The notes under the pieces: generated by a model
Seen by the model: only the letters and a program-made list of their open reading frames with translations
Told to the model about the DNA's origin: nothing
Databases searched by the model: none
Assembly: GCA_015146655.1 (NCBI GenBank)
Contig: VKHL01000128.1
Span: 20,299 to 84,298, forward strand
Source: Ochromonas danica
Taxonomy: Eukaryota; Sar; Chrysophyceae; Chromulinales; Chromulinaceae
Reading direction: 5' to 3'
Length of the DNA stretch: 64,000 nt
In this document: one piece after another, positions 1 through 63,812 of the stretch
How the letters are laid out: each line of letters begins with the position of its first letter
Numbering within the stretch: position 1 is the first letter of the stretch
Program-made: the position numbers and the translations under genes

Positions 1-325
1 TCCAATGGATGAGAAGAAAACTAGAAAATGGCAAAGATTAGACTATTCCTATTTATTCGCTGTAGTTTGGACTTTGGAAAGAGGAAAGTCTAAAACCAAG
101 TGTTTAAAGTCTAAAATCCAAGACCATGGCTTTCTCTTGTTTTCTCTTGTGCTGAAAATTCCGGAATTGCAGTTTCGCACATTGCTGCTCTGTACAGAAT
201 ATTTGCAGAAGCGAAATAGGCAGTGACCCTGACCCTCTGATTCTCGTTGTCACAACAGAAATGACACAACTAAATGTCATTATCATAAGTAATTGATTGA
301 AGTAAAACAACGAGCAAACCAAACC

Positions 326-2434: not shown

Positions 2435-3261
2435 TCGTTTCTGTACGCTATTCGAATTATTTGTTTGTCAGACTGCTTTGTCAGTCGAGAGTTGCAGCGA
2501 GGAGTGTTTTGTTCCTTTGGCTATAATGTGCTGATAGTACCCCTCTTTGCATTGTATTGCTTTTCGCTGTTCTCATTCTTTCCTGTTTTTGTTGAGGTAT
2601 TGCTTTTCACATTTCATTCTTTGATATTATTTTGGTATTATGCTAGCTGCAAGCTGGGTTATGAAGAAACTTTTATCATATTATATCGGTAGATTGGTTT
2701 TCAACTCTCGTTGAGTAACGCAATTATCCTTAAATCAAATTTCTTCCTACAACGACTTGGCAAAACCTTCTTTTAATGTTAGTTAGAAAGTATATTAACT
2801 AAATTTACTGTTTACTGGTAGTTTGGTACTGTGCACCACCTGGTCAGATTACTAGTTCCATCCCTGCGATTTTGGACAGATTCGAATTTCCCATTCGGAA
2901 TTCAAAAAGTCGGAGGTCTCGGCGTGTCGTTTGAAGTCCAATGGATGAGAAGAAAACTAGAAAATGGCAAAGATTAGACTATTCCTATTTATTCGCTGTA
3001 GTTTGGACTTTGGAAAGAGGAAAGTCTAAAACCAAGTGTTTAAAGTCTAAAATCCAAGACCATGGCTTTCTCTTGTTTTCTCTTGTGCTGAAAATTCCGG
3101 AATTGCAGTTTCGCACATTGCTGCTCTGTACAGAATATTTGCAGAAGCGAAATAGGCAGTGACCCTGACCCTCTGATTCTCGTTGTCACAACAGAAATGA
3201 CACAACTAAATGTCATTATCATAAGTAATTGATTGAAGTAAAACAACGAGCAAACCAAACC
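2435..3261. other. Intergenic between permease copies
   Basis: No convincing gene. 2435-2936 is AT-rich 3' flank that corresponds to, but has diverged from, the 3' flank of copy 2. 2937-3261 repeats the 5' flank of copy 1 (1-325) and should hold the promoter of copy 2. A 73-codon ATG ORF at 2941 (and its twin at 5) has no protein-like features. Confidence 0.6.
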
Positions 3262-5370: not shown

Positions 5371-6052
5371 TCGTTTCTGTACGCTATTCGAATTATTTGT
5401 TTGTCAGACTGCTTTGCCAGTCAACGTGGAGTGTGTTGTTGCATTGACTATAATGTTCTGATAGTATCCCTCTTTGCTTTGTAATGCTGTTCTCTCCCCA
5501 ACAGTTGTTGGGTTGTTGTTTTTTATACGTCATTCTCTAATATCACCCCTCAGTTCCCTATCTCCCTGCAGTTGTTGTGATGTTGTTTTTCACATTTCAT
5601 TCTTTGATATTGGTTTGGTATTATGCTAGCTGCAAGCTGGGTTATGAAGAAACTTTTATCGTATTATATCAGTAGTTTGGTTTTAAGTCTCATGAAGTTA
5701 TAGTAGTAGTAGTAACGTAATCATCCTTTCAAACAAATTTCTTTTAATGTCTTGGCAAAACCTTCTTGTAGTGTTAGTTAGAAAGAGCATCAACTAGATT
5801 TACTAGTAGCTACCACATGGTTAGGGTTAGGGTTACTGTAGGGGTATTATTAAGGTTAGGGTTAGGCTAGTGTATTCTGCAGAATAATATGAATGATGCT
5901 ATTTAAATAGTATAGTGATAGACTCCTATACTATTTGTGCTCCCTATACTATAGTAAACCATAGAGAAGGACTGTTAGACTGGGTCAAGTTAAGTTAATC
6001 AATGATCATAGCTAACAATAGAGAGAATAGATATAATACGAGATGTACTCTT
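5371..6052. other. Intergenic with degenerate duplicate tail and telomere-like repeats
   Basis: 5417-5818 is the diverged counterpart of the tail after permease copy 1. It is followed by TTAGGG-type repeats (5819-5866) and about 180 bp of AT-rich DNA. No ORF is supported. The region lies between convergent genes, so it should mainly hold 3' ends. Confidence 0.55.
5819..5866 (+). repeat. Interstitial telomere-type repeats (GGTTAG)n
   Basis: Two short blocks of GGTTAG units, 5819-5835 and 5854-5866, are separated by about 18 bp. TTAGGG is the common telomere unit in many eukaryotes, including stramenopiles. They sit directly after the tandem permease duplication, inside gene-containing DNA. 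Confidence 0.75.
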
Positions 6053-10465: not shown

Positions 10466-10787
10466 GATGACAAGACCAGATGAAGGAGATCAAAAGCAAG
10501 GTCAAGTTCAACCGATCGATCACGGAGGAGAGAGAGAAGAGAGAGCGAACCAGAAGGACGAGGGAAAGACCGACGAGCAGGGAGGAGTTTATTCGCTTGT
10601 GGCAGAATAGAACATGGAATCGAACTCAGAATGAGGACACCACCTCCTTGCACTGCTGTGAACCCAAGGCCATTCCATGGAACCCCGTGCCAATGCCACG
10701 GAACAGCAGGCGATGCAAGACAAAACAAAACTGTGAGAGAGAAAAACTCAACACCGCTCGTTTTTTTTGCGCATCTCCGGAGTGGGG
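10466..10787. other. Short divergent intergenic region
   Basis: This separates the minus-strand SulP start from the plus-strand GC-rich ORF. From about 10480 the base composition switches from AT-rich to GC-rich, with purine-rich gagag tracts near 10520-10580. It may hold promoters for both genes; no specific site is recognised. Confidence 0.4.
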
Positions 10788-12110
10788 ATGGCACAATCAA
10801 ACGTGACGGGGAAAGGAGCTAGTATGTCGAACAAACGCATTGGATCGCGAGACGCACAGCTGCCGTTCAAGATGCCGCAGTTAAAAGATCCTCCCGACCT
10901 GTATTACACAAACCCGGGTTGCTCGCGACCTTTCATTCCGGCTGAGGAGATGCACGACCAGCGCACCAGTTCCTCGTCCAGCATCGCGCAAGGGTCCCGT
11001 GGCCTCCGCACACCCATTCCCTCCCACAAGTCGCGTTCGACCCAACCCCGGCAGGATTCCAGCGCGTCAGTTTCACTCCAACATCCGTTGGAAGATTCCG
11101 TGCCTACAACCACTCAATTTCAAAAAGCCACTCAGCCTCTTGCGCTGGAGTCCGCGCCCGTCGTCCCCCATGCAGCGTTGCCCCCGCAACGAAACGACGC
11201 GCCGTCGCGCTTGATGCGCGTCGCGGCCGCCATTCCCGATGCAGTGCCGCCCCTGCCGCTGAGCAATGTGGACGACCGCGGCGCGTCCCTTTCGACGCAC
11301 AGCAACGAGACGCTCCTGATCGCGCAGCCTTCCAAGAAGCCGCGGTTGATTAAAAGAAAAGCTGGGGATGAATACAATCCCCCCAGCGTGTGTCACACCG
11401 TGCCAGGTTCCTCGCAAGCCTTCATTCCTGCTCACGAGGTGCACTCCAGGCACACGAGTTCCTCCTCCAGTATCGCACAAGAAATCCCGATGCGCTCTGC
11501 AAAGAAAACGCGACCCGTCAACTTCACGACTCAGCCCCTCGTGCAGAAGTCCGCGTCCGTCGTCCCCAAACCCGTGCAACCGAACGACGACGTGGTATTG
11601 TCCCCGGTCGCGGCCGTCATTGCCGATCCAATGTTGCCTCCACAGCTGACCAACGCGCCGCCCGCGGGGGGCGACCGCGACGGGTCCTCGATCGATCCGG
11701 CCCTGTTCGATCGTATGGTGCAAATGATTGTGGCGCGGTCTGCAGAGGCGGGATGGGCCATGGTAGGTTCCAACGCTTCCGCCGCGTACAACGACGGCCC
11801 TATCCTTGCCATGATGACCTCGGTGATGAACCGCTGCAACACGATCGACGTCACGATAAGCAACCAAAACGCGCGCATCAACTCCATGGTCGGTACCATT
11901 ACCCGGATAGTGACGATCTTACGCCAAATGACGTCCGCGGATGCCGGGATTCAGCGCAGCTTGCAAACGGTCACCAGGATTCAGCGCAGCTTGGAAACGG
12001 TCACCAGCAACAACTTGGCGTTCTCTGGCATCACTCTTCCTCCTCGGCACACCGCCACTCCGCCGCCAGCCAAATCGTAGAACTGCGATCTGGCGCTCGA
12101 ACTTCAATCA
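10480..12110. other. GC-rich compositional island
   Basis: About 1.6 kb with much higher GC than the surroundings, judged by eye. It begins just upstream of the SulP gene start and ends shortly after the stop of the duplicated-module ORF. No terminal inverted repeats, target-site duplications or transposase were recognised at its edges. Confidence 0.7.
10788..12080 (+). CDS. Unknown intronless ORF with duplicated module, GC-rich island
   Basis: Hypothetical protein, 430 aa from the first ATG at 10788; a second in-frame ATG at 10824 is also possible. The reading frame extends upstream only with a TTG. The N-terminal two thirds are Pro/Ser/Ala-rich, look disordered, and contain a module twice. 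Copy 1 starts about 10902 and copy 2 about 11388. Each has a Cys-then-FIPA-(E/H)E-(M/V)H core, a TSSSSSIAQ run, a TQPL-S-VVP stretch and a Val/Ala/Ile-Pro-Asp/Ala patch. The C-terminal 130 residues are helical and include a near-repeat (IQRSLQTVT, IQRSLETVT). GC content and codon use differ clearly from all neighbours, suggesting transfer or mobile origin. Long overlapping frames on both strands are expected in GC-rich DNA, so even the coding frame is not certain. I recognise no family. Confidence 0.45.
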   Translation: MAQSNVTGKGASMSNKRIGSRDAQLPFKMPQLKDPPDLYYTNPGCSRPFIPAEEMHDQRTSSSSSIAQGSRGLRTPIPSHKSRSTQPRQDSSASVSLQHPLEDSVPTTTQFQKATQPLALESAPVVPHAALPPQRNDAPSRLMRVAAAIPDAVPPLPLSNVDDRGASLSTHSNETLLIAQPSKKPRLIKRKAGDEYNPPSVCHTVPGSSQAFIPAHEVHSRHTSSSSSIAQEIPMRSAKKTRPVNFTTQPLVQKSASVVPKPVQPNDDVVLSPVAAVIADPMLPPQLTNAPPAGGDRDGSSIDPALFDRMVQMIVARSAEAGWAMVGSNASAAYNDGPILAMMTSVMNRCNTIDVTISNQNARINSMVGTITRIVTILRQMTSADAGIQRSLQTVTRIQRSLETVTSNNLAFSGITLPPRHTATPPPAKS

Positions 12111-40568: not shown

Positions 40569-42026
40569 TGCAGCTACAGCTGTTGTTTGACTCTTCATGA
40601 TGTAATGTAGACGTTGATGAGATAAGAATGACTCTAATCATAACAACTACATTGAAGTCTATGGATGTTCAATAATCAACTACTTGTATCATAACGTTAG
40701 GTTATCAGATGGACAAGAAGCAAGAGAGGTAGTTAGTAGTTAGTTAGCTAGTTACATGATCTTCATTGAATCCAGCCAAAGGAGAAGAACTTGGATACTA
40801 ACTGGTTAGGCCATTTCTTATCAATATCCTATACTATCGATAGTAGAAAATACTGTCGGCACCAGCAAGGAAGCATTTCATTGAGAATATAATTTGCCAT
40901 TAATTTTGTTTTCCCTGATCGGTTGTCACCAATCAATGAAACAGATTCGAAGGAATTGATCTCTTAAAATCAGCTTCTTGATAGGTTGTTGTTTATCAAT
41001 CAATTACCACATGCATTACTCCTCGCTAGGCATGAGTGTAATGTATACTCTACTTTCGACAGCTCACATTTTGTAAGTCACCAACGAAGAGTTGAGAAAC
41101 TTGTTGGTCGCTCGTTGGTGATATTTCACCGCATAGACCCTTGACCAATCACACCCACCGCAAGCTGAGCTAGGCCATGTATATAAGATACACTTGGTGG
41201 TGAGAATGAAGTTCGATTTGTTCGGTCATGGTTTTGGCCTCGTTCAGAAGCTCTTTCCACCCACGAATAGTTCAGTGTAGCATTGTATCGGATCGACAGA
41301 GATTCCCATTACGATCAGTACTTCCTATCATCTTTCTTTTCTTTTGTTGTGAACTTGTGACCAGATTACTCGTGGTAGACTGGACCATCTCTCAACTCTT
41401 GTATGGCTTCAAACAACTCTACCACCAACAGCGCAGGAATCAACCTCTACCATGATTGTCAAAAGCTAAATTGTTCATTTCATGCTTCGAAATCCAACTG
41501 ATCTGGAGAACTACTCAAATTTCGACCTTGTTCAACATCATCGTCAAATTTGGCATGGAAGTATCACTATTTGAGCGGGAAAGTTCAACCTGGTTTTCGG
41601 TTTTCGTTTGTTCGAATTTTTTGCTAACGGACTCCATTGCGACACAGCAAGAGAGAAGCCCCAAGCCTCCCCACCATAGAAAGGTCACGTACTCATTCAC
41701 ACCAAGTCACAGTGACGTTGCTCAACGCAGGGCAAGAGAAGGAGAGAAAGACCTCAACAAGGCTTCGGGGGCGGAGGGGGGAGAACAAAGTCAACATCAA
41801 CTCTCTCCCACCCACCCACTGCCTCTGTCATTTGGTCTCTACGCCTTGTCATCACAATCGAATCAACCTTGAAGTACTGGGAACTTCTTCATCATGTCTA
41901 CCTCTTCTATCATTCGTTGTTAAATAAATACTGCTGTTATTAAAAAAGGAAATATTATTCATTATTGTTCATTCTGATTATTATGTTATAGAAGAAGATT
42001 TATAGAAGAAGAAAAAGACTCAAACA
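40569..42026. other. Long intergenic region, no firm gene
   Basis: 1.46 kb between VPS13 and the histidine kinase. A 75-codon ORF (41228-41455) with one hydrophobic segment and an overlapping GTG/TTG-opened frame downstream are not convincing. A 10-bp inverted repeat lies at 41079-41121. The last 100 bp are AT-rich and probably the kinase leader. Confidence 0.45.
41079..41121. repeat. Perfect 10-bp inverted repeat
   Basis: tcaccaacga at 41079-41088 is the exact reverse complement of tcgttggtga at 41112-41121, with a 23-nt spacer that itself contains a ttgttggtcg near-copy. It could form a hairpin or be a dimeric binding site. Function unknown. Confidence 0.6.
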
Positions 42027-44574
42027 ATGTGGAAAGCTCCTTTCCTCTTTAATGTGGCGATTTTGTTCGTGGAACTCCCTCTTGCATGCTATCTTTGTTA
42101 CCTTGTCATGGATGCTCATAGTAATCCCATTACTTTCATTCGTGGTGCTTTCTATCTTGTTCAGATTTTGCTCAAAGCCATTGCAAGCATAGTCTTATCC
42201 CTGCAATGCTATTATTGCTACTATTCGAAATACTATCAACAGCAACAGGTCGTCCAGGTTGAGCAAAATCAATCTGGCCTTGACCTCAAACAGAAATGGA
42301 AGTCTGTTACCTATGCATCTATCTCATCTTTCGCTATTCTCTATTATGTTGGAGTGTTGTTGAATTTGTTCCAAGTTTGCTTTTTGTGTGACTCCTCCTT
42401 CTCTGACAGTTATGTCGTCCTTTATCATGATGCTTTGTCATTTTCGATAGCATATACCATACTCTATCCTGTTCTTTTCACTGTCATCTTTAATGAGAGC
42501 TATCCTGAAAACACACCTTTCATCTGGCTCTTGTGGATTCTCTGTGTTGCTGCTGTGACCTGTGTATTGATTTATAAGAGGTCTTTGAGTATGACCTTAG
42601 TCAATGTATACTTCTTGCTGGTTTGCCTCTTGAGCTTTTATGGGGTGCATCGTATGAAAGCGATAAAGACCAATCCCATTCAACAGGAGGAAAGAGAAGA
42701 GGAGGAGAAGAAAGATGATGAGGAGAAATCGACCTTAGCTGCTCGTAACTCCCAAGAACTGCTTGACAATATGAAGAACATGATGGGCAATGTGGCCCAT
42801 GACCTCAAGACGGTAAGTCTTTCTCTTTGCTTCTCGTCTGGCACTGGTTGTCTCAATCTCGCCTCTGCCTGTCATCCCGCAGCCCTTAGCCTCCTTCATG
42901 ACTGGGCTCGAAACTCTCCAGAAAATGCTTCTCGAATGCAAAGTCAAGCTAGATCGTGACGAGGAAAAACATCTTGTGCTATCTTCGTCGACCTTTGATG
43001 ATAGTTCGAGTTCCAATGTTTCTTCTGTGAAAATGCTCCTCAGCGATTGCTTGGAGTGTTTATCGAGTATGTCAGACACGAATGCCTTTATGCTAATGAA
43101 TATCCATCGTTGTATTGACTACGTCAAGGCGAGCAAAGACTTGAAATTAACACCAAAGTATGAGACGGTTTATTTACTGGAGGCCATATCTCTGCCTCTA
43201 CAGTGCATGAAGAATATTCAGCAGCGTGTGTCGATCAACTTCCTTCCAATTCAGAAGGATATTTGTAGTCATGTGATCACTGATAAGCAATGGCTGCAAG
43301 AGAATGTACTGTGTCTGTTGAGTAACGCTGTCAAGTATTCTAATGGAGGGTCTGTCCAGGTCAAGATTTCGTTGGAGAAGCAATACACTTGTTCGAATGA
43401 TGACCACAAAGTTGTAAAAGACTCCAAACCTTCTAACATAGATAGTTTGGATTTGATTTCTCCTTCTTTCTCGCAATATTCTCACGGAGGAAATTCTGTG
43501 GCCAGAAAGAAGATTCATCCCGATCCAGATCAACCAACAGAAGTTGCGAAATCGGTGACCGTTCTTCGTGTAGAAGTTGAAGATGAAGGAATTGGCATGT
43601 CTGAACAAGCTATGACCTCTCTCTTCTCAGCTTTCAAGCAGAACCAGCACTTGGCTGGAGGAACAGGATTGGGTTTATTCTCTTTAGCTAAACGCATGGA
43701 AGCGTTGCAAGGTCGTTGTGGTGTATCTAAACGTCGAGATGGAAAGCGTGGCTCGTTGTTTTGGTTCCAGTTTCCTTATCGTGAAGATGTGATAGCGTAT
43801 GAAAATTGGATTGCTTCGCAATCTGACCACAATTTCAGTGTTGTCACCAAGCCTGGAATGATCAGAATTGTCTCTCATGGGGAATCGTATGATGAGAAGA
43901 TTGACAGTGTTGCTTGTTCTCTCTCGGCGCCCACTGTGGAAGATTCCTTCTCCGATGTCGTGCTGACCAAGAAGCCATCCCCTTCCTGCCATTCCTTTGA
44001 TTCCTTTAAAGACATGAAAGTGCTGTTGGTAGAGGATAGTCCGTCTATTAGCAAGATCACTTCCATGTTACTTCGCAAGAGTGGCTTCCAAGTGGAAGTT
44101 GCTGAAAATGGCGCTGAGGCCTTGGATAAGATTCAAAGCTCTTTACGGAATCATGTTTTAAATGAACATGGTGTAGCGGGGAAATCAATTTGTTGTGATG
44201 ATGAAGATGATAATTGTTGCTTGCGAGCCTTCGATTATATTTTGATGGATCTCCAAATGCCTGTGATGGATGGTTTGGAAGCAACTCGTCGTTTGCGTGA
44301 TTTTGAGAATCATGGCAATATGAAATGTGATAGCTGTCCCTTTATTAATAATACGAACTATATCCATGGAGCAATGGAGAAATGTAGTTGTAGTAGTGAT
44401 TTTATGTGCAAGAAGAAAGTATTTCACCACAAAGTGATCGGTGTGTCTGCTAATGAAGATGAAGAGACCCAAAAGGCTATGGTAGATATAGGATTTGATG
44501 CTTGTTTGTCAAAGCCATTCTCCATGGTAGCCTTCACGAAATTGATTTCCACTATCGATCAGTCTCCCCTTTGA
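42027..44574 (+). CDS. Membrane hybrid sensor histidine kinase with receiver domain
   Basis: Two-component phosphorelay sensor. Exons 42027-42812 and 42883-44574 give 825 aa. Residues about 1-205 contain six or seven hydrophobic helices, a membrane sensor module I do not recognise by name. The phosphoacceptor His258 sits in the H-box HDLKT|PLASF, and the intron falls exactly between Thr and Pro. The ATP-binding domain has an N-box (Asn410, LSNAVKYSNGG), DEGIGM and GGTGLGLF. A receiver domain starts near residue 642 (MKVLLVEDS), with phosphoacceptor Asp718 (ILMDLQMPVMDG) and Lys806 (SKPF). A Cys-rich insertion in the receiver (DSCPF ... CSCSSDFMCKKK) is unusual. There is no output domain, so it should signal through a phosphotransfer protein. 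Confidence 0.92.
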
Positions 44575-45154
44575 AGTATTACTTGAAAGTAATATTTGTT
44601 GGTGGAGATGATCTATCTGACTCGATCTATCAAGATATCTCTATTCTGTGTCCATAACAAATCTTAAACCTCATGGGATTTTCTTGCTCTCTTGCAATGA
44701 AAATGGGAGAATAGAAGATTCTATCCTTCGCGGAGTATTTATCTTTGTTTGTTTTTCTGTTCCTTCTTGTGTCTCAAGTGCTATTCTGTTGATTCGCTTT
44801 GAGGTTAAAGCGTTATCTATCTCTTGTCTCCCAACCCGACAATGTGAAAGTGTTGACGCTTACTCTTCGATCAACCTTATCCTTTTTAAATTCTAAGTTT
44901 GTTTTGCTTTGTGCTTGATCTGGAATCCTGATGGATTGATCTGTCTATCCCTCCTCTGAGATTTTGATTTTGAAGGTTGCATAGTTGTTTTGGTTGTTTG
45001 GATATGCAACCAGGTACGTAAGTTAAATTGATCAAAACGACCTTCAACCTTCAACCAATCATCTCGTAATAATAGCTTCCCACCTCTTCCTAATAATAGC
45101 TCGCATGCGGAAGTCATTCAGGCCCTAGTTAGCGGTCTGCTCATTGAAAAGAAA
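44575..45154. other. Intergenic, no gene seen
   Basis: 580 bp between two plus-strand genes, AT-rich, with only chance ORFs. Promoter of the plastid-protein gene is expected in the last part. Confidence 0.5.
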
Positions 45155-46234
45155 ATGGGCTGTCATTTCTCCATAGCCTGGATATATTTCCACTTGCTAT
45201 TGTTGTTTATCTCGATTTTCCCCTTGAAATCTTTCCAACACCCTTACCTCACTTCCCTTTCTCGCCAGCATGTATCAAAAGGTTCGCCTGTCTTTCGCCT
45301 GCAGGCCAACAATCCGAATAAATCTCCAAATGCAGTGGAAAGAGTTCTGCAACAGAGAAGGCCCTCCTCTCATCTCACTGGTGTAAATTCTGAAAAGAAC
45401 TTAACCATAATTGGCAACGAGATGAAGATGGCTCAAAAAGAAGATAATAAGGTTCTCTTCCCTGAACTTGAACAATCGGGTATTGATGAGAAAGCGCTAC
45501 GTGCTTCCCCCTTTGGCAAAGTTCTGTTTGCTGTTTTGGATCGACTCTTCCCCGTTTTCTCGGAACCCAACTGGTTCGATGTTTATGACCCACCTCTCAC
45601 CACAGAAGAGAATCTTGCATTGCCTTACTTTGATGGATATGACTTTGCAAATTCATCCTGGACGATCTACGTGCGTCATCGATTTGGTGCATGGAATTGG
45701 TTGGATCGCATGGGATTAGTTCCCCAAGCAACACAACGAGTCTTCCTTCGTCCTGATGGAAAAACGTGCTGGTCTGATGGATACTATGGCGATTGGTACA
45801 TAAATCCAGCCATTAACTACTTCCAAATTGAGAAGCATTTTGGTCGTGGATTCGGATATACTCAATATCATCGTGGTATTCGTGTCTATCAGATCCAACG
45901 ATGGCATTATGAGGATAGTATAGGAAGATATTGGCAACGTGGTTTGCGATCGTATCTGCGCAATGAGACTCAGTTTTGGGCATTTGAAGGACGAGTATGG
46001 GGCAGTGCCGTCAAATGGAGACCTTATCCACGTGACCAGGGCAAATTTCTCGCTATTCGTGATGGTGCTAATCTGACTGAGATCTTTGGTCGACTTCAAG
46101 ATACTCCTTGGCAAGCTCGCTTTGAGCATGCGATGTCATTACCTTTTTATCAAGCACACCCAGATCAGTTAGAAAGGATAGAAGATAATTTTGACTTCTA
46201 TTATCGTAACCTGCTTGGTAGTGAAATAAGATAA
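45155..46234 (+). CDS. Unknown plastid-targeted protein, 359 aa
   Basis: Not recognised. A single exon. The N-terminus is a signal peptide (hydrophobic residues about 8-24) ending in KS, followed by FQHP and a Ser/Arg-rich, acid-poor stretch. That is the bipartite leader with Phe at +1 used to enter complex red plastids. The mature part (from about 100) is rich in aromatic residues, especially Trp and Tyr, with stretches such as NWFDVYDPPLT, SWTIYVRHRFGAWNW, CWSDGYYGDWYINPAINYF and WRPYPRDQGK. No membrane segments are seen after the leader. It may be a lumenal or stromal protein; it converges with the plastid NnrU/ICMT-like gene. No function is claimed. Confidence 0.7.
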   Translation: MGCHFSIAWIYFHLLLLFISIFPLKSFQHPYLTSLSRQHVSKGSPVFRLQANNPNKSPNAVERVLQQRRPSSHLTGVNSEKNLTIIGNEMKMAQKEDNKVLFPELEQSGIDEKALRASPFGKVLFAVLDRLFPVFSEPNWFDVYDPPLTTEENLALPYFDGYDFANSSWTIYVRHRFGAWNWLDRMGLVPQATQRVFLRPDGKTCWSDGYYGDWYINPAINYFQIEKHFGRGFGYTQYHRGIRVYQIQRWHYEDSIGRYWQRGLRSYLRNETQFWAFEGRVWGSAVKWRPYPRDQGKFLAIRDGANLTEIFGRLQDTPWQARFEHAMSLPFYQAHPDQLERIEDNFDFYYRNLLGSEIR

Positions 46235-46361: not shown

Positions 46362-47303
46362 TTAAAGAAAGGGCAAGAGCTTGTTTGGAGTCTTTTCTTG
46401 ATAGTCAGCATATTCCTAAAGAGCATGACATTCTCTTCATAAATATCATGTCATACATAAAACAATTAGAAATAAAACTCACCGGATGAGCCTCCAACAA
46501 TTTCTTTTCTTCCAAAGAAGCCTTGTAGTTCTGTCCGTTATCATTATCAACCAATCAACATTGTTAGATTGCTCGACATATGAACTATATGTAGTTAGAT
46601 GTCTTACCAAGACAACACCGAGGGCAAGAGTCAAGACTAATTTACTTGCACTATCAGAAATTATGGAAATTCCTAAGGACGATAGAATCAAGCCAGCATA
46701 CATGGGATGACGCACGATCTGATAGACTCCTTTGGTAACCAGCTCATTATCAAGACAAGGAGTAACAAAGGGAGAAGTGTTCTCTCTTAAATCACTGGAT
46801 CCTCCAAGGATAAAATAAGCTCCAGCCAGTAGTGTAAGCCATCCACTCAAGTGGATTAAACCGGAGATCAAGCCAGGTACACCCAACAAAACAAAAAGGA
46901 AAAGGGTCATTTGAGTGAGAAACCAAACTTCACCTCGTTTACCCACTTCTCCTTCACCAAGATTTTTAAGAATACTCGAAGAAGAAATTCGAAGAGACTC
47001 CATGAAGTCAGCCACTGCTTGACCACGACTTTCTTCATCTTGTAATGTCTTCGCCAACTGTGCAGTTTGTTCTTTCAGACCATCAATTGTGTATCGAACT
47101 GACTCTGGTAAGTCATCGAATTGCTTGGCATATAGACGACTAGATTGTGAAAGATATGGTTGAAGTGAGGAAGTTTTCAGTGAGGGATTAAAACGAAGTT
47201 GTGTAAGGGAGTGATGAGTAGTGGAGGTCCAAGAATAAGATGATTGAATGAATAGAATGAAAGTAAACAGTAGACAGAATACCATATCAACAATGGATTT
47301 CAT
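46362..47303 (-). CDS. NnrU/ICMT-like membrane protein with plastid-type leader
   Basis: Minus-strand exons 46608-47303, 46483-46530 and 46362-46415, all phase 0, give 265 aa. The N-terminus is a signal peptide (about 1-25, ending SYSW) followed by a Ser/Thr/Arg-rich stretch, which suggests plastid import; here an aromatic Trp sits near the cleavage point. Helices lie at about 130-180 and 205-230. Conserved IVRHPMYAGLI and the C-terminal EE-LLEAHPEYADY segment place it with isoprenylcysteine methyltransferase/NnrU-like proteins. Both small 3' exons match those of the PH-domain paralogue at 19047-20423 in position and nearly in length. Without splicing the C-terminus would be replaced by an unrelated tail. 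Activity unknown. Confidence 0.75.
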
Positions 47304-47551
47304 TTCCTTGCCTAGTTCTTTGATAACTTTCTTGTTCTATATTCACAGGATCTCCGGATCTGTTTGTTCAAGACCAAAGATTGAAAAGTTCAACTCCCCA
47401 CCCATCGGGCATGTTAACTATTCTTACGATGCGTGAAATAATCTTAACTTAACGTGAACTTAACAGACTCGAGTGCGGAGTGGACGTGGTCTTCCCTTCT
47501 TCCTGCTGCAGCTTTGGCATCATATTTGTGCTTGCAAAGGAATTATCAATC
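47304..47551. promoter_or_regulatory. Shared divergent upstream region (NnrU/ICMT-like / ferredoxin)
   Basis: 248 bp between two divergent genes whose products both carry plastid-type leaders. A common light- or redox-controlled promoter is a reasonable inference, but no motif was recognised. 'ttaacttaacgtgaacttaac' near 47441-47463 is a tandem TTAACTTAA-like element. Confidence 0.35.
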
Positions 47552-52073: not shown

Positions 52074-55000
52074 ATGGAACGAGTTGCCTCTACACGTAGT
52101 ACACGACCGACTACTTCGACTGGTTCTAATGACTCTCTCAAAAGAAAGTCAGGAGATCTTGACGAAATCAATGACGAAAACGTGAACAATAACAACAATC
52201 CTGTCCCCAAAGTCTCAGCCAATAGTAAGCGGTTAAAGACATCTGATGACGCATCTGTTAAGTCGTTATCTTCGACAACGGGAAGCAAGGTTGGATTGTC
52301 GAAGTCAAGTGCTCTACCTCGTCTCGCCACACGTCGTTCGGTCGTCACTGGAACACCCGCGGGTAATAGTGCTGCTTCAGCTGCTACTACAGCCGCTTCA
52401 GCACCAACTCCCTCCACTGTTGTAGTACCTACCACAGTCAGTGCATCGACTGTTCCCCCCACCACACCTCGTCGTGGTCGATCTGCAGCAACTGCAATGC
52501 AAACACCCGCAAACATGAAAGCTGGGTCGTCCATTCAATTGAATGCGATGCTTCAAGAGACACTCTCTGAGTTATCCTTTTCCACTCTACGTGAGAAGAT
52601 TGAAGGTTTGTTTCAATCGAACAATGATCGTCTAACCTCTATTGTCAATGCCATGAAATGTAAAACCAAGTATGATAAAGACAAACAAAAGAAACAAGAA
52701 GTCGCTGTGAAGGATCTTAAAGATCTTGTCCTCTCAACGAATGAAGATCTTCAAGGAGCTATTGAAGGTTGTCGTGAAGTGGATCGTAAGTTATCCACAG
52801 TGTTAGCACGACAAATTACACAACGATTAGAAGATATGCATAGTATGGCTTCACTTCGTGAGAAAGAGAAAGAACTTCATCAAGTCAAGGAGTCTATGGT
52901 TGAAGAAAGAGGAGAGTTTAAAAACCAACTGTTACAGCAGCGTTTAGATTATGAAGATCGTCTTCATCGTCTAGAAGCAAATCAGCTGTCCTTGAGTAGT
53001 GATCTAGCAGCCAAGGAGAAGGATATTCTCCTCTTAGAGAATCAGTTAGCTGCCCTTAAACATGATTATGAAACTGCGGTTAAAGAAGGTTCTGCTCTAG
53101 CTGATCAGGTAATGACCATGTAATGATGATTATTGTATTTTCATGCACAGTTAGAGAAGCAATGTGATATGATTACGATTGTCATACTGCTTCCGTTGCT
53201 AGTGCTAGAGAGAAAGTGTAGTGAAGGTTATAATGGATCATCACGAAGCAAATCGTGTTGTGTCCTTCGCGCCTTTACACATTATTAACTCTTTGCGATG
53301 TGTGTGTGTGTATGTATATGGTGCTGTACAGTATATGTTTGATTGCACAGTTAGAGAAGCAATGTGATATGATTACGATTGTCATACTGCTTCCGTTGCT
53401 AGTGCTAGAGAGAAAGTGTAGTGAAGGTTATAATGGATCATCACGAAGCAAATCGTGTTGTGTCCTTCGCGCCTTTACACATTATTAACTCTTTGCGATG
53501 TGTGTGTGTGTATGTATATGGTGCTGTACAGTATATGTTTGATTGCACAGTTAGAGAAGCAATGTGATATGATTACGATTGTCATACTGCTTCCGTTGCT
53601 AGTGCTAGAGAGAAAGTGTAGTGAAGGTTATAATGGATCATCACGAAGCAAATCGTGTTGTGTCCTTCGCGCCTTTACACATTATTAACTCTTTTGCGAT
53701 GTGTGTGTGTGTATGTATATGGTGCTGTACAGTATCTATTTCTTCACTGACTTTTCTGTTGTTCTCTAACTCAAACCTTGTTCTTCTTTTAGCGCGCGGA
53801 GAGTGTTGCATCTCGTTATGAATCAGATATGTCTTCCCTTCGCGAAAGTCTCAGTAATTTACAAACAGATTATAAGACTCTTCTCAATGAGAAAGAAGAA
53901 CTTCTACAGAAGTATCGATCTCTATCAGAAGACTTAATGAAAGCAACCATGTCTAGAGAATCGTCTGATAAAATCTCTTCCAAACAACAAGAAGATCTTG
54001 ATCGTTTGAATGCTGAAATTACTCAACTTAAGAATCAATTAAATCAAAAAGATGATGATTTGAGAGCTGCTATGTCTTCCTTACGAGAAATGCAAAAGCA
54101 AGCACAAGAAGAAAAGACATCCTTTTGGACTGAGTTTACTACTTTACATAATAAACTGCAAGCTGCAGAAGAGGAAAGAAGAGGATTAATTAGTCAATTA
54201 GCAGAAAAGAAGGAAGAAATTGCTCTCTTACAAAGAGATCTATCTCAACTTACTACAACCAAAAGTGAATTAGAGGAAAAGCTAATACAACAACAAGAAG
54301 AAGCTTTTTCTTCTCGTGATTTAATTGTTCAATTAGAGATTGAAAAGAAATTACGTATTAAATGTGAAATGCATGAAGAGAATGAACGACGTGAACGAAC
54401 TGCTGCTGTAGCACAACTTATGGCAGTTCAAGCAGAAAGTGCAAAGAGAATTAGTGAAATTGAACAACATTCTATGGAAATAGAAAGTCAATTAAGAAAT
54501 GAACTGTCCTTATTAGAAGAAAATAAGAATAGTCTAGAAGATGAAAAGAAAGCACAAAGTGATCGTATTGTTGGATTAGAGAAAGAAGTGGAACAATTAC
54601 ATAAGTCTTTATCAATTCATAATCCAAATAATCAACCACTTTCTTTATCATTAGAAGAGTTTTCAAGAGCTTCAGGAGAAGTAGAAGTATTAAAAAGACG
54701 TTTAAAAGAAGCACAAGATGCTGCAGAATATCAAGTACAGACTCTTAATAAACAACTTGCAGATGTGGAAAGTAAATTGAATGTTTCGGAAAGTCAACGT
54801 AGACGTCTACATAATCTTGTACAAGAATTACGAGGTAATGTAAGAGTATTTGCAAGAGTTAGACCATTCTTGCCATCGGATAGTGCAGATAATAGTATGA
54901 CATCTCCTCCTGAGCCAATCATTACAGCTCGATCTGAGTTAAATCTCTTACAACTTCCTCCTCCACCAACTCCTCTCACAGCTACATCTCGATCTCATGA

Positions 55001-56478: not shown

Positions 56479-56892
56479 AATAGGTATAGTATTGTGCAGT
56501 GTTATGTCTATATTATGCTGTACACACTACTGTACTATAATGCCTGGTGAGATGAGATGTACGATATATCTATGCTATACTATGCTGTTCTAAGTATAGG
56601 AAGTGTGACGAAACCTCTTTATCAGTTAATTCTAACACCCATTGTGTGTATGGTATAAACAACAAAAATGACTTTACTAGAAATCATCACCATTAGTACT
56701 ATCATCATGATCACCATCATCTCCCTATAATTATTTGATTTTCTTTAAACACGTCAAATTTGGAAGCGAAAAGCAAAATGTGGTGCTCAGTGCTCACACA
56801 CCAACTTCCGAAAACCGAAAACGGCAACATGTCACATGTAAGGTTTCACCACCATATCTATCAAACATCAATAACTCGCAGCACCTCTCCAA
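56479..56892. other. Intergenic, no gene seen
   Basis: 414 bp between the kinesin stop and the first array gene. It contains tandem-like tatgctata/tactgt stretches near 56515-56590. No ORF is supported; the last 120 bp are the array gene's upstream region, partly shared with the other array members (tatcaaacatc... aaATG). Confidence 0.5.
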
Positions 56893-57928
56893 ATGACCTT
56901 GCTTGCAATTTTGATCTTTTTTGGTCTTATTTTGGCCATTGTCCAATCATCCTCTATGCTTAACAAGCGTTTCGAAATCTCATCTTCGACAGAGCATCGT
57001 TCTTCTCCCTTTCAACCTATGAATGCTGTTGGTCCTTTTCCAGATAATCCAACCTATATGTCAATTGAAGAATTCTCAGATACTAACTGTCAGAACAGAT
57101 TCATAGTTGAAAACATCGTCTTGAACGTATGCCTGGCTAATGAGAAGGGATCTATCAAGTACTCATGTGGTAAAGAAACACTTCCTTCTGTTATATGGCT
57201 TCATTACCTTTTGCTTTGTTGTTTAACTCTTTTGCTATTACTACTACAGAGAATGGTATTCCCTATCTTCAAAAATACGATGATCTGATTTGTGATACTT
57301 TGACATCAAAAACTAACAACAATGGCGTTTGTAGCACCAGTTTGGATGGAAAATCTTACAAGTGGAGCTGTGATGTTACTAGTGCCTACGACTATCCGGA
57401 AGGCAACTATTTTGTGTACACGTAAGGAAGAACCCACTGCTCTTCTCTCTCCAAGCTTTCTTTCACTTCTCATGTACTCTTTCTTCTGTCTATGTTAGAA
57501 TGCATCAATCCGACACTTGTGACGCGGAGATTCTTGAGACTACTGCCTTTGTGAATGGATATTGTTTTCGTAGTGGTGGAGCTTCATTCATGTATAAATG
57601 GCCTTATTTCTATTATTATTCGAATTCGGGTAAGTGTCAGGGATACGGTTATCCGACTGATCAATCTTTGGGTGGCTGTACGCCAAATGGAAACAATGAC
57701 GATGACTACGTGGACTACGGTGCTTATCATTCCTCTTCCAATGTAGTGGTGGATGGTGATGATGACAAAAGTGATGATTCTCTGAGTGGATGGAAGATTG
57801 CTGTGATTGTGTTGTGCTTAGTCGCTGGATTTGTTCTTATTGCTGGACTAGCATATTATTTCTTTGTCGTGAAGAAGTCAGTGCCCATGAGTTCTGTAGT
57901 CAAGGTCGATGATCCCGACTTATTATAA
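56893..57928 (+). CDS. Array gene A: cysteine-rich single-pass surface-type protein
   Basis: Unrecognised family with four tandem members here. Exons 56893-57169, 57250-57421 and 57499-57928 give 292 aa. A signal peptide (about 1-19) is followed by a conserved FQPMNAV-PFP segment. The ectodomain has regularly placed Cys residues (NCQN, NVCL, YSC, WSC, DTC, YC) and several Tyr/Trp-rich patches. An Asp-rich stretch leads to SLSGWKIAVIV and one transmembrane helix (about 248-270), then a short basic tail. This predicts a type I membrane protein exposed at the cell surface or in an endomembrane lumen. It pairs with gene D: same MTLLAIL start, and second introns that differ at one base. Function unknown. 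Confidence 0.78.
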
Positions 57929-58171
57929 GATCCATTAAAGTCAACTATTTTGTTCAAAGTATGTTGGTTGCTTTATCTAATAAATCCCATAGCAATATAT
58001 ATCTTCTTTCCGTTGATGCAGATTAATAATATAATTTCGTTATGTCAAGTTGTAGCTTACATGTAGTATGCCTTCATGACAGTAGTAAAGTAGTGATGAC
58101 TGATTAACAAGATAAGTAAAGTAATAAATAATAATAATAAAGTAATAATAAAGTTTAGTGTAATGCGATTG

Positions 58172-58207
<36 letters not shown>

Positions 58208-58667
58208 AAATTAGCATTGAACATCCGACCCCTTCTACCATCTCTTCAAACGCCCTTGTTTTCTGCTTAGCGCTTCCAGACAACAGAGGCATTATGTAGG
58301 GAAGATGGAAAGTCCTTCCCTTCATTCTATCTCTGTAGCATTCTATGTGTGCAATGGGCATCAAAAGTTAACGCCATACAAAGTGACAAAGCACCAACAA
58401 AAAAGTCGCTTTTTTGTTGTTGAATGTTGGTGGAAAAGGCATCGAATCTTCGTAGAAAAGAAACTGCATGGAAAACGGACTTTTGTGATGTTATCTTCAC
58501 AAAAACGCTCTCTGGAGATTCCAAATACAGAGAGAGGAATTTGAGAAATACAGCACAGCACAGAGTGGACTATAGCAGATCACAGAACAAATCCGAAATA
58601 TCAAAAGATATAGATTTATTGAATATCATCTATCAAACATCTGCAGCTTTCATCACTACTTGTATAA
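57929..58667. other. Array spacer A-B with CA microsatellite
   Basis: Holds the conserved 3' flank (tctaataaatcccatagca at 57977; tagcttacatgtagtatgcc near 58051) and a (CA)n run at 58173-58205. The 58290-58560 part has short ORFs with poly-Lys/Phe runs that look like chance. The last 60 bp are the shared upstream region of gene B. Confidence 0.55.
58173..58205 (+). repeat. (CA)n microsatellite, about 33 nt
   Basis: Lies after taatgcgattg in the 3' flank of array gene A, at the same relative place as a longer tract after gene B. Confidence 0.9.
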
Positions 58668-59703
58668 ATGAACTTATTTGCTGCCGTTATCTCTTTCGTT
58701 TGCACTGTCCTTGTATTAGCCACTGCCCAATCATCTTCTTTGTTTAACAAGCATTTCGATCTCTCATCTTACACAAAGCATCATTCTTCTTCTTCCTTTC
58801 AACCTATGAATGCTGTTGATCCTTTTCCAAATAATCCAACCTATGTGTCTATTGAAGGATTCTCAGATACTAATTGTCAGAATGCGTACAAGGTTGGAAA
58901 CATCGTGTTGAACGTATGCCTTGCTAATGAGAAGGGATCTATCAAGTACTCATGTGGTAAAGCACTTCTATATGGCTTCATTACCTTTTGCTTTGTTGTT
59001 TAACTCTTTTGCTATTACTTTACAGAGAATGGTATTCCTTACCTTCAAGAATACGATGATCTGGCTTGTACTACATTGACATCAAAAACGTCCAACAATG
59101 GTGCCTGTATTGCCACGCCGGATGGAATGTCTTACAAGTGGAGCTGTGACGCTACAAGTGCTTATGACTATCCGGAAGGCGATTATTATGTAATGACGTG
59201 AGGAACAATTTCATTGCCTTTCTCTTCACTTCTTATGTTTACATCTGCATTGTTCTTCTGTTTGTGTTAGGACATATCAATCCAACACTTGTAACGCAGA
59301 GATTATTGAGACTATTGCCATTTTGAATGGATTCTGTTTCCCTGGAGAAGACACAAATTCCTACATGTGTCAATGGCCTTACATTTATAGTTATCCGAAC
59401 TCACTGAATTGTGAGGGATTTAAAGATCGCTCAGATCCTGCATTTACTTGTCCGTTGATTGAGCCAACCGATGGTGATGACTACGTGGGCTATAATGCTT
59501 ATCTCTCCTATTCCAATGTAGTGGTGAATGATGATGACAATAGTGATGATTCTCTGAGTGGATGGAAGATTGCTGTGATTGTGGTGTGCTCGGTCATTGG
59601 GTTTGTTCTTATTGCTGGTGTAGCGTATTATTTTCTTGTCATGAAGAAGAAGTCTGAGCCCATGAGCTCTCAAGCCAAGGCTGATAATCTGGAGGTAATA
59701 TAA
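58668..59703 (+). CDS. Array gene B: cysteine-rich single-pass surface-type protein
   Basis: Second member of the array. Exons 58668-58956, 59026-59197 and 59271-59703 give 297 aa. The middle exon is 172 nt as in all four genes, with intron phases 1 and 2. Layout is the same: signal peptide starting MNLFAAVISF, the FQPMNAV-PFP block, Cys-rich ectodomain with Tyr/Trp patches, Asp-rich stalk, SGWKIAVIVV helix (about 252-277) and a Lys/Ser tail. It is closest to gene C in the leader and second intron. The donor of intron 2 is GTGAGG rather than GTAAGG. Function unknown; likely surface-exposed. Confidence 0.78.
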
Positions 59704-59965
59704 GACTATCTAAGTAATCTATGATGTATGTATCTAAGTATGCTGGTATATTGTTGTGGCATGCTTTATCTAGTGAATCCCATAGCAGTATATATCTTCC
59801 TTCCATTGATGCAGATTGGTAATACTAGTATAAGCATATTTATATTATAATTTGTAATGTTGTGTAGTAGCTTACCTGTAGTATGCCTTCATGACATTAG
59901 TAAAGTAATGATGACTCACTTGAGAGTGATTAACAAGATAAGTAAAGTAACTGTCTAATGCGATT

Positions 59966-59966
<1 letters not shown>

Positions 59967-60043
<77 letters not shown>
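59967..60043 (+). repeat. (AC)n microsatellite, 77 nt
   Basis: Uninterrupted dinucleotide run after taatgcgattg in the 3' flank of array gene B. Confidence 0.95.
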
Positions 60044-60044
<1 letters not shown>

Positions 60045-60061
60045 CCTTCCTTCTTCTCAAA

Positions 60062-60437
60062 TCATCCAATTTCCTCCTGCCGCCTCTGTCTGATATTATT
60101 GCTGTCCATATATTGGAAGAATGCGTCGATGCAATCGCTACTCTCGTCCTTTCTACTCTTTTCTGAGTCGTTTGAATAAACAATCATGTCAAGAGAAATT
60201 TTCTTTTCCATTGCAAGGGTCGTCCACATCATCGGTAGTATCTTTATCAGCACCTGCACCAATACTACCAGTTCCACCAGGATTAGCAGCCACTTCTTCT
60301 CTCGAGCTGTACATCTCTTCCTCATCAACTTTGAGTTTCTCTTTAGCTACAACCGCATCCTCTTCTTCAATCTCTTCACACACCCCAGTTCTCACATTGG
60401 TCAAAACCAGAAAATAGAAAAGTACGGAGGTGGACAC
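60062..60437 (-). pseudogene. Possible frameshifted gene fragment
   Basis: Two overlapping minus-strand frames, 60189-60437 and 60062-60328, read better as one broken protein than separately. The upstream half is acidic (CEEIEEEDAVVAKEKLK, DKDTTDDVDDP); the downstream half is polar with SNDSEKSRKDESSDCIDAF and QRRQEE. A single extra C in the gacgaccc run, at about 60228, would explain the switch. No start or splice sites are clear, and no family is recognised. It could also be chance in low-complexity DNA. Confidence 0.25.
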
Positions 60438-60779
60438 GAAAACAGCGGGGCACTGGAATATAATTCCAGTCTCTAGATATCAGTCCCTTCTACCATCTCT
60501 CCAAAAGCGCTTGCCTTCTACTTAGCGGTTCCAGAGAAGAGAGGCATTCCGAAGGGAAGATGGAAAGTCCTTCTCTGCATTTCGTCTCTGTATCTGTGTA
60601 TGTGCATCAACATCGCATCACTTTCAATTGCTGGTTTGTGTGAAGTTAACGCTTTACAAAGCAAATACAGCCTGCAAAAGCTCCGCTTTATTGTTCGAAA
60701 CTACGTGCACTGTAGAAGAAACTACTTGAGAAACGGCGCAAAGCCGCTCTCCCGAGATTAAGCACAGCACAGCGACAAT

Positions 60780-60826
60780 GTGGAGTGGGGAGCGGGGAGA
60801 AGGGAGAAGGGAGAAGGGAGAAGGGG
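60780..60826 (+). repeat. Purine-rich short tandem repeat (gggagaa)n
   Basis: Imperfect repeats of a gggagaag-type unit with a preceding gtggggagcgggg stretch, in the B-C spacer upstream of gene C. Confidence 0.7.
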
Positions 60827-60906
60827 TTCCAAGATCGAAAGATACAGATCTGTTGAATATCAGCTATCAAACATCTGCAGCTTTCACCACTACCATAATT
60901 GTCTAA

Positions 60907-61946
60907 ATGAACTTATTTGCAACATTTCTCTCTTTTGTTTGTGCTGTTCTTGTATTAGCCACTGCCCAATCATCTTCTTTGTTTAACAAGCATTTCGAAA
61001 TCTTATCTTCGAGAAAGAATCATTCTTCTTCTTCCTTTCAACCTATGAATGCTGTTGGCCCTTTCCCAGAAAATCCAGCCTATATGACTATTGAAGAATT
61101 CTCTGATTCAAATTGTCAGAATACATACTATCTTGAAAACGTCGTGTTGAACGTATGCCTTGCTAATGAGAAGGGATCTGTCAAGTATTCGTGTAGTAAG
61201 AAAACACTTCTTTCCATATTTCTCTATCAACTTTTGCTTTGTTGTTTAACTCTTTTGCTATTACTACTACAGAGAATGGTATTCCCTACCTTCGAAAATA
61301 CGATGATCTGACTTGTACTACATTGACATCAATAACTTCCAACTATGGCGTCTGTACCACCACTTCAGAAGGATTGTCTTACAAGTGGAGCTGCGGCGCT
61401 ACCAGTGCTTACGACTATCCGGAAGGCAATTATGTTGTGACCACGTAAGGAACAATTCATTGCTTTTCTCTTCACTTCTTATGTTTACATCTGTTTTGTT
61501 CTTCTGTTTGTGCTAGGACATATCGATCCAACTCTTGCAAGGCAAAGATTCTTGAGACAATGGCCTTTTTGAATGGATTCTGTTATTCTGGAGAAGGCAA
61601 ATATTCCTCCATGTTTAAATGGCCTTATTTGTGTTCTTATCCGAATTCGCCGAACTGTGAAGGATCTGTAAATCGCCTTAATCTCTCTGGCTCTGAATGT
61701 CCGGCAACGGATCCGAACTATAGTGATGACTACGTGGACTACGGTACTTATTACTCCTTTTCCAATGTAGTGGTGGGTGATGACAATAGTGATGATTCTC
61801 TGAGTGGATGGAAGATTGCTGTGATTGTGGTGTGCTCAGTCATTGGGTTTGTTCTTATTGCTGGTGTAGCGTATTATTTTCTTGTCATGAAGAAGAAGTC
61901 AGAGCCCATGAGTTCTCAAGCCAAGACCAATAATTCTGAGGTATAA
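60907..61946 (+). CDS. Array gene C: cysteine-rich single-pass surface-type protein
   Basis: Third member. Exons 60907-61195, 61273-61444 and 61517-61946 give 296 aa. Layout as in the other members, with leader MNLFATFLSF, the FQPMNAV-PFP block, Cys-rich ectodomain, Asp-rich stalk, SGWKIAVIVV helix and a tail ending NNSEV. It is closest to gene B. The first exon ends A|GTAAG instead of G|GTAAA, so the junction codon is Lys here and Glu in A, B and D. Ectodomain patches such as KYSSMFKWPYLCSYPNSPNC differ from the other members. Function unknown. Confidence 0.78.
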
Positions 61947-62767
61947 GATTGATCAAAGTCATCTGTTTTGTTCAAAGTATGCTAGTGTGGCATGCTTTAT
62001 CTAATAAATCCCATAGCAGTATGCATATTCCTTCCATTGATGCTGCTTGATAATATAAGCATTTTAATAATATAATTTGTAATGTTGTGTAGTAGCTTAC
62101 CTGTAGTATGCCTTCATGACATTTGTTAAGTAATGATGACTCACTTGAGAGTAATTAACAAGATAAGTAAAGTAACTGTCTAATGCGATTGACACATACG
62201 CGCACACGCTAATCTACGCCCATGTAAGTGGTGTCAAATATCAGACCCTTCTACCATCTCTCCAAATGAGCTTGCCTACTGTGCTGCTGCGGTTTGGATC
62301 AGGATTAGGATTATGTAGGGTTACTTCCTTCTTTTCTTCCCATGGAAACTGCCCTTCCATGGAAACTTCTCGTTCACCACACATCTTTATCAATCAACAC
62401 ACACAACGTTGAGGTTGATTGCTGACGACCACAAGTGCGTTTCAATAGAAAGGCTGTGGAAACTGCATTCCGTCCTTTAATCCGTTTCGGTAAAGTTACA
62501 AACCAGGGACCACCACAATAAACAAAACTAAAGTTGACTTTTGCGGTGGGGGATTAATCGAAAGTAGACTTTAAAATCAATAAATCAGACTTGAAGATCA
62601 GGTCTCGTCTCGGGTCTCGGCAGATCCAAGTCTCGATTGACCCAAAAGAAGCAGACCGATACCAATCCGCAGTTGCCACTTCCCAAAAAGGAACCCTTGC
62701 ACCACATCTAAAACATTGGATATCCCTGGAATCTATCAAATATCTGCAGCTTGCAACACCTTTCCAA
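61947..62767. other. Array spacer C-D, no gene seen
   Basis: Has the conserved 3' flank and, at 62190-62206, a short degraded counterpart of the CA tract (cacatacgcgcacacg). The remainder shows no gene; an ORF opening before gene D has no leader and runs into it. Confidence 0.55.
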
Positions 62768-63812
62768 ATGACCTTGCTTGCAATCTTGCTCTGTTTCGGT
62801 CCTGTTTTGGCTGCTGCTGCCCAATTATCTTCTTTGCTAAACAAGCACTTCGATCTCCCATCTTCGAGAGAGCATCATTCTTCTTCTTCCTTTCAACCTA
62901 TGAATGCTGTGGATCCTTTTCCCGATAACTGTACCTATGTATCGTTTGAGCAATTCTCGGATTACGATTGTCAGAACAGACTCGCAGTTTGGAGCATCGT
63001 GTTAAATGTTTGCTTGGCGGATGAGAAGGGATCTATCAAGTACTCATGTGGTAAAGAAACACTTCTTTCTAATTGAATTTATCAACTTTTAGGTTTCTCT
63101 TTAACCCATTTACTATTTCTACAACAGAGAATGGCATTCCTTCCCGTCAACAATACAATGACCTGACTTGTACTACATTGACATCAACAACTAACAACAG
63201 TAACCAATGTAGCATTGATTCGAGTGGAATTCCTACCAAGTGGAGCTGTGATATTACCGGTGCTTACGACTATCCGGAAGGCAACTATTTTGTGAACACG
63301 TAAGGAAGAACCCTCTGCTCTTCTCTCTCCAAGCTTTCTTTCACTTCTCATGTACTCTTTCTTCTGTCTATGTTAGAATGCATCAATCCGACACTTGTAA
63401 CGCGGAGATTCTTGAGACTACTGCTGTTGTGAGTGGGGTCTGTTTTCCAGAATATCCAAGTTCATTCATGGTTAAATGGCCTTATTACTATTATTATCCG
63501 AATTCGGATAATTGTGAGGGATCCAGCTATTTAACTGATCTATCTGCGAAAGGATGTATGACAGTTGAAAATACCGATTATGACGACTACGTGGGCTACG
63601 GTGCTTATCGTTCCTATTCCAATGTAGTGGTGGGTGGTGATGATGACAATAATGATGATTCTCTGAGTGGATGGAAGATTGCTGTGATTGTGGTGTGCTC
63701 AGTCATTGGGTTTGTTCTTATTGTTGGTGTAGGGTATTATTTCCTTGTCATGAAGAAGAAGTCAGAGCCCATGAGCTCTCAAGCCAAGGCTGATAATCTG
63801 GAGGTAATATAA
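62768..63812 (+). CDS. Array gene D: cysteine-rich single-pass surface-type protein
   Basis: Fourth member. Exons 62768-63050, 63128-63299 and 63377-63812 give 296 aa. The ATG at 62768 was chosen because it opens the signal peptide (MTLLAILLCFGPVLA), as in gene A; the frame upstream is open but has no leader. The ectodomain differs most in the Arg/Gln patch after NGIP and in the Tyr-rich WPYYYYYPN region. Stalk, SGWKIAVIVV helix and KKKSEPMSSQ tail match B and C. The second intron matches that of gene A except at one base. The array may continue beyond the window, as the 3' flank reaches its edge. Confidence 0.78.

Follow-up and report, generated by a model that had tools for sequence, protein, structure and literature searches.

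The closest described counterparts of the proteins considered here are the Bad proteins of Dictyostelium. In the portion of the BadA study that treats this family (PMC7886984), BadA is described as a DUF3430 protein whose overexpression raised and whose depletion lowered bacteriolytic activity, DUF3430 is described as having at least eight conserved cysteines and 54 PF11912 family members in D. discoideum, and the BadA domain is speculated to adopt a MiAMP1-like fold in its first half. That same portion places PF11912, as of 2021, almost exclusively in dictyostelids, besides one Symbiodinium and one Bodo protein, the Symbiodinium protein being the sole one named from an alga, and it describes Phytophthora proteins (V9E022, A0A0W8C5U5) that have a signal sequence before a comparable domain, in many cases together with a transmembrane (TM) domain and a kinase (PMC7886984). 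Here we report on a four-gene array at positions 56893-63812 of a 64,000-nucleotide (nt) window of the Ochromonas danica contig VKHL01000128.1 (contig positions 20,299 to 84,298; all positions below are those of the window). We lean towards the reading that the array arose by local duplication, undergoes gene conversion and encodes membrane-tethered Bad-type (PF11912, CfaA_B_C/DUF3430) domains facing bacteria or other cells; its proteins are probably a variant of a known, if poorly understood, family that occurs here in a new context, and not an entirely novel kind.

The array comprises four intact genes on the same strand, for which the following models were rebuilt:

56893-57928, plus strand: gene 1, exons 56893-57169, 57250-57421 and 57499-57928, 292 amino acids
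58668-59703, plus strand: gene 2, exons 58668-58956, 59026-59197 and 59271-59703, 297 amino acids
60907-61946, plus strand: gene 3, exons 60907-61195, 61273-61444 and 61517-61946, 296 amino acids
62768-63812, plus strand: gene 4, exons 62768-63050, 63128-63299 and 63377-63812, 296 amino acids

A first annotation made from the letters of this DNA (the original prediction) had proposed four same-strand genes of three exons each, with equal intron phases and a middle exon of 172 nt, and all four rebuilt cleanly in this form. All introns are GT..AG, the second donor of gene 2 being GTGAGG, and they are short (69-80 nt; for genes 1-4, intron 1 has 80, 69, 77 and 77 nt and intron 2 has 77, 73, 72 and 77 nt). 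Exon 1 measures 277, 289, 289 and 283 nt and exon 3 430, 433, 430 and 436 nt; the reading frames are open, the exon lengths differ by multiples of three, and their sums give intron phases of 1 and then 2. The other three proteins are 66, 73 and 69% identical to that of gene 2. In a self-BLAST the units appear as blocks of 1.2-1.4 kb with 77-84% identity, a divergence too large for assembly copies. The repeats extend over the genes plus parts of the 5' and 3' flanks, introns and flanks being homologous among units. No further member was found by tblastn within the window (other matches had expectation values (E) of 3.2 or worse); because the window end cuts the 3' flank of unit 4, the array may continue past 64000.

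The predicted protein layout was likewise seen in all four proteins: a signal-peptide-like start and a cysteine-rich ectodomain, then an acidic stalk leading to a single TM segment and a short tail. The N-terminus is hydrophobic in each (hydropathy 2.08-2.47; signal-peptide-like by hydropathy only), a single strong TM segment is evident from hydropathy, and ten ectodomain cysteines are invariant (gene 2 positions 70, 84, 96, 111, 124, 137, 161, 176, 201 and 214). Where the proteins enter the membrane, all four genes have the same 30 nt (mean of 0.00 matches in 100 shuffles). In the short cytoplasmic tail we recognised neither a signalling domain nor any other. In gene 2 the two central parts lie as follows:

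58836-59466, plus strand: PF11912-like ectodomain of gene 2, residues 57-219, split by two introns; cysteine units A-D
59563-59643, plus strand: TM segment of gene 2, about residues 252-278, with a hydropathy peak of 2.95 from residue 254 and a short lysine-rich tail after it

The original prediction recognised no known family; this part was not borne out, as the trimmed ectodomains match PF11912, in the case of gene 2 above the curated cut-off of 28.6 bits. Four of the seven versions of gene 2 that hold the complete ectodomain pass this cut-off (29.8-33.0 bits): residues 44-239 (E 7.9e-8, 33.0 bits), 44 to the C-terminus (E 1.4e-7, 32.2 bits), 51-222 (E 2.9e-7, 31.1 bits) and 57-219 (E 7.3e-7, 29.8 bits). 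On the 57-219 trim (gene 2 numbering) all four proteins match PF11912, gene 3 with E 4.9e-5 (23.9 bits), gene 1 with E 9.1e-4 (19.7 bits; 20.6 bits at best over all versions) and gene 4 with E 0.004 (17.6 bits), and genes 1, 2 and 4 cover profile positions of about 20-190 of 206 in a common register (19-190 in gene 2). None of 14 shuffled and two reversed control sequences matched PF11912; all 14 shuffles kept the cysteine positions and five of them the aromatic positions as well. Given that the other proteins are at least 66% alike to that of gene 2, we suggest that homology to PF11912 is likely for all four, the formal cut-off being passed by gene 2 alone, in four of its seven versions.

The ectodomain apparently consists of two similar halves with two short cysteine units each, as suggested mainly by the alignment of units A and B and by the mapping of both halves to the same part of the profile. 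The N-half and the C-half of gene 2 each fit the same region of PF11912 best (126-192 and 121-190), and N-half matches in this register were also obtained for genes 3 and 4. Unit A, encoded by exon 1, aligns with unit B, encoded by exon 2, in hhalign (E 5.4e-4, probability 30%), MAFFT unasked put exon 2 fragments onto unit A, and intron 1 lies at the boundary of the two units. By shuffling, A-B pairs gave p 0.004-0.084 with full shuffles and 0.009-0.121 with the cysteines fixed, and the other unit pairs were mostly not significant.

Several observations weigh against the assignment to PF11912 and against a Bad-like role. The main weakness is that the match is strongly trim-dependent: (i) gene 2 has no match at full length, as residues 1-245 (without the TM segment) or as residues 22-239 (with the linker kept), which together are the three failing versions, (ii) genes 1, 3 and 4 stay below the cut-off in every version, (iii) at full length gene 1 alone matches, below the cut-off (E 0.0072), gene 4 does not, and gene 3 has no match in four other versions, full length included, and (iv) the N-halves of genes 1 and 3 and a typed consensus sequence do not match PF11912. 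The best trim was moreover arrived at after several tries. We think that the signal peptide and linker abolish the gene 2 match via the HMMER pre-filters. Some control shuffles hit families unrelated to PF11912 (E 0.0095, 0.013 and 0.021), and because shuffles reach such values the matches of gene 4 (E 0.004) and of full-length gene 1 are weak when taken alone. The Y/F/WxxxxC motifs (3, 3, 4 and 2 per ectodomain) show no excess over shuffles (p 0.06-0.52). The direct hhalign comparison of the A+B half with the C+D half gave no alignment (probability 0.2%); because it failed and the unit shuffles are mixed, the internal repeat is suggestive rather than proven. Structure predictions, for which contiguous pieces served as input, were poor: for exon 3, AlphaFold gave four short strands and a helix at the place of the TM segment with a mean predicted local distance difference test score (pLDDT) of 51.5, and the exon 1-intron 1-exon 2 piece of gene 2 reached a pLDDT of 32.4. 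Sequence searches of the PDB returned neither MiAMP1 nor a crystallin. Finally, in the portion of the BadA study cited above purified BadA alone did not lyse bacteria (PMC7886984).

Identity among the copies is mosaic, which points to gene conversion. In all six gene pairs, runs of identical polymorphic sites exceed permutation (p 0 to 0.031 in 2000 permutations, uncorrected); the weakest pair, genes 3 and 4 at p 0.031, would fail a multiple-test correction, and uneven constraint along the gene could also lengthen such runs. Between genes 1 and 4, identity amounts to 98.7% in intron 2 and to 80.1% in exon 1. The following tracts stand out:

57437-57520 and 63315-63398, plus strand: likely conversion tract of genes 1 and 4, from intron 2 into exon 3; 32 consecutive identical polymorphic sites (0 of 2000 permutations)
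57185-57240 and 58965-59017, plus strand: likely conversion tract of genes 1 and 2 in intron 1; 21 consecutive identical polymorphic sites (0 of 2000)
59657-59695 and 63766-63804, plus strand: tract common to genes 2 and 4 in the cytoplasmic tail; 15 consecutive identical polymorphic sites (0 of 2000)

The proportion of synonymous differences (pS) is 0.133 in stalk, TM segment and tail, whereas the ectodomain has 0.343 (a contrast reached in 0 of 5000 permutations), and the ratio of non-synonymous to synonymous divergence (dN/dS) is 0.59 in the ectodomain (residues 57-222) and 0.63 in TM segment plus tail. Among the cysteine units, D has diverged most (proportion of non-synonymous differences (pN) 0.397, dN/dS 0.85), and linker and stalk reach a dN/dS of about 1.2 on few sites. 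The predicted contrast between a constant membrane part and a varied ectodomain is thus borne out, but its interpretation as a sign of variable antigens is not: because synonymous sites are low in the membrane part too, its constancy is at least partly homogenisation, and with dN/dS similar in both parts the contrast speaks for homogenisation, not for selection for variety. In total, the array evolves fast under net constraint without clear diversifying selection.

Each gene is also preceded by a common element. The 12-nt CTATCAAAYATC has four exact matches in the window, each 24-43 nt before an array ATG; with one mismatch there is one more match, at 15897 (chance expectation at up to one mismatch 1.16). 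The spacing of units is about 2.25 kb between genes 2 and 3 vs 1.78 and 1.86 kb elsewhere in the array. Between genes 2 and 3 there is an additional spacer (60067-60450) with overlapping frames on both strands.

56858-56869, plus strand: upstream element CTATCAAAYATC of gene 1, with copies at 58630-58641, 60864-60875 and 62733-62744
58173-58205: (CA)n microsatellite after gene 1, from a repeat scan
59967-60043, plus strand: (AC)n microsatellite 3' of gene 2, from a repeat scan
3' of gene 3: degenerate microsatellite remnant, seen by eye

Combining topology and family assignment, we suggest that the array proteins would enter the secretory route as type I membrane proteins and sit at the cell surface or in phagosomes, where the tethered disulfide-rich domain may contact bacteria or other cells. 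It would then either permeabilise their membranes, as speculated for Dictyostelium BadA, or hold those cells. By analogy with BadA, we infer that the targets of such a tethered domain would be bacteria or other cells, met on the cell surface or inside a phagosome. Since we recognised no domain in the tail, the proteins are likelier to act as effectors or tethers than to signal directly.

Alternatively, the proteins may be recognition, adhesion or mating receptors, the ectodomain of which binds partner cells or prey and the copies of which differ in specificity mainly through unit D. The surface topology, the tandem copies, the mosaics among them and the high divergence of unit D are what such receptors would be expected to display, and a recognition or adhesion role, as the original prediction had envisaged, is possible. 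An ectodomain dN/dS that is not above 1, the lack of an adhesion domain at the Pfam cut-off and a tail without a visible signalling domain argue against it, and we regard receptors as an unlikely, if serious, alternative.

It is less probable still that the array is an unrelated cysteine-rich family that scores with PF11912 through chance spacing. The strong dependence on trimming, the weak or absent full-length scores and the controls that hit other families by chance at E of about 0.01 would fit such a family, but four versions of gene 2 reach E 7.9e-8 to 7.3e-7 over profile positions 19-190 of 206, the shortest trim scores in all four proteins, and none of the 16 controls, including five that keep both cysteine and aromatic positions, matches PF11912.

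Variable surface antigens, of which a single copy would be expressed at a time, also come as a tandem array with mosaic identity between copies, and we find this reading very improbable here: all four copies are intact and each carries the shared upstream element, no broken donor copy lies within the window, synonymous differences are few in the constant part as well, and diversifying selection on the ectodomain is not apparent (dN/dS 0.59; 0.85 in the highest cysteine unit). Nothing in the sequence points to copy switching. That the array is an assembly artefact or a set of alleles laid end to end is hardly credible, since its units share 77-84% identity and are unlike one another in their spacing, their flanks and their microsatellites, even if a duplication with 99.2% identity is present elsewhere in the window (1-2565 and 2937-5492).

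Other matches of the array proteins were set aside. Phycodna_minor_capsid on gene 3 (E 0.0055-0.012), Insulin_TMD, LapA, SUR7, Orf78 and a plant cysteine-rich domain were dismissed as chance or TM-only matches, each below its cut-off where one exists. An NCBIfam pilin-like model that matched all four members (best E 0.0025) did so over the TM segment, PHROGs matches were no better than E 0.14, and the hits in the PDB, namely the TM segment of CD46, viral VP1, BDS-I and CO dehydrogenase, were taken as chance or TM-only. No relatives were found in the viral_contigs, genome_contigs and phages collections, which means little because all three hold few eukaryotes and the first two need exact short peptide patterns.

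Elsewhere in the window, frames carry Pfam VPS13_N, kinesin, GAS and RNase_HII domains. The GAS model is presumably GAS8, dynein regulatory complex subunit 4, and its match (E 1.5e-45) suggests a motile flagellum. Two frames, 45032-46234 (+) and 46479-47336 (-), have a hydrophobic start, then S-F or S-W, then a region rich in Ser, a layout that we take to be red-derived secondary plastid targeting; the former, a 400-residue frame with an S-F junction and no Pfam match, is perhaps an uncharacterised plastid-targeted protein. The introns of the array genes and the Pfam domains just named mark the window as eukaryotic, and its source would be a flagellated alga, for instance an ochrophyte. The 2.6-kb tandem duplication of 1-2565 and 2937-5492 may be recent or an assembly duplicate, and two amino acid permease-like frames in its first copy recur in the second. 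At 53144-53735 a 200-bp unit occurs three times with 99% matches between two long coding frames leading into the kinesin motor. A 447-residue frame without Pfam match at 10737-12080, which contains a tandem repeat of 30 bp close to its end, is possibly an insert and lies mostly within the most GC-rich 4-kb block (0.494 vs 0.41 for the window). A seemingly multi-spanning frame (by eye) at 42006-44574 overlaps a HATPase_c/response-regulator frame, and the two are probably one split hybrid sensor kinase gene.

Returning to the array as a family of tethered Bad-type domains, a bolder and rather doubtful extension is that a bacteria-eating, mixotrophic flagellated alga keeps a converting array of such domains on its surface or in its phagosomes, as a repertoire with which bacterial prey is killed or sorted. 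If true, this would amount to something like innate immunity, built on the same working domain as in amoebae. A membrane-anchored array outside the dictyostelids, in a lineage that has flagella and is probably photosynthetic, would extend the range of PF11912 and hint at a greater age or mobility of the domain than has been assumed. It would also offer a further system for experiments on the role of the Bad domain, and the reading of two halves and four units with an intron between A and B provides a concrete model for the domain.

MiAMP1 is a plant antimicrobial protein of 76 amino acids with a beta-gamma-crystallin-like fold, and in length it corresponds to about half a domain of the array ectodomain; it is absent from the PDB sequence-search matches and Pfam scans of the array proteins. 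By description alone, the array resembles the Phytophthora family in its signal sequence, similarly spaced aromatic and cysteine residues and TM domain, and differs from it in that the array proteins are without the cytosolic kinase often found there, as far as the cited portion of the BadA study describes that family (PMC7886984). With the Dictyostelium Bad/counting-factor-associated proteins the array shares a secretory start, a cysteine-rich domain over most of the profile and the organization as a multigene family, and its ten invariant cysteines compare with the at least eight given for DUF3430 in that portion (PMC7886984). Unlike the Dictyostelium PF11912 proteins, described there as a signal peptide plus the domain (PMC7886984), the array proteins add an acidic stalk, a TM segment and a short tail.

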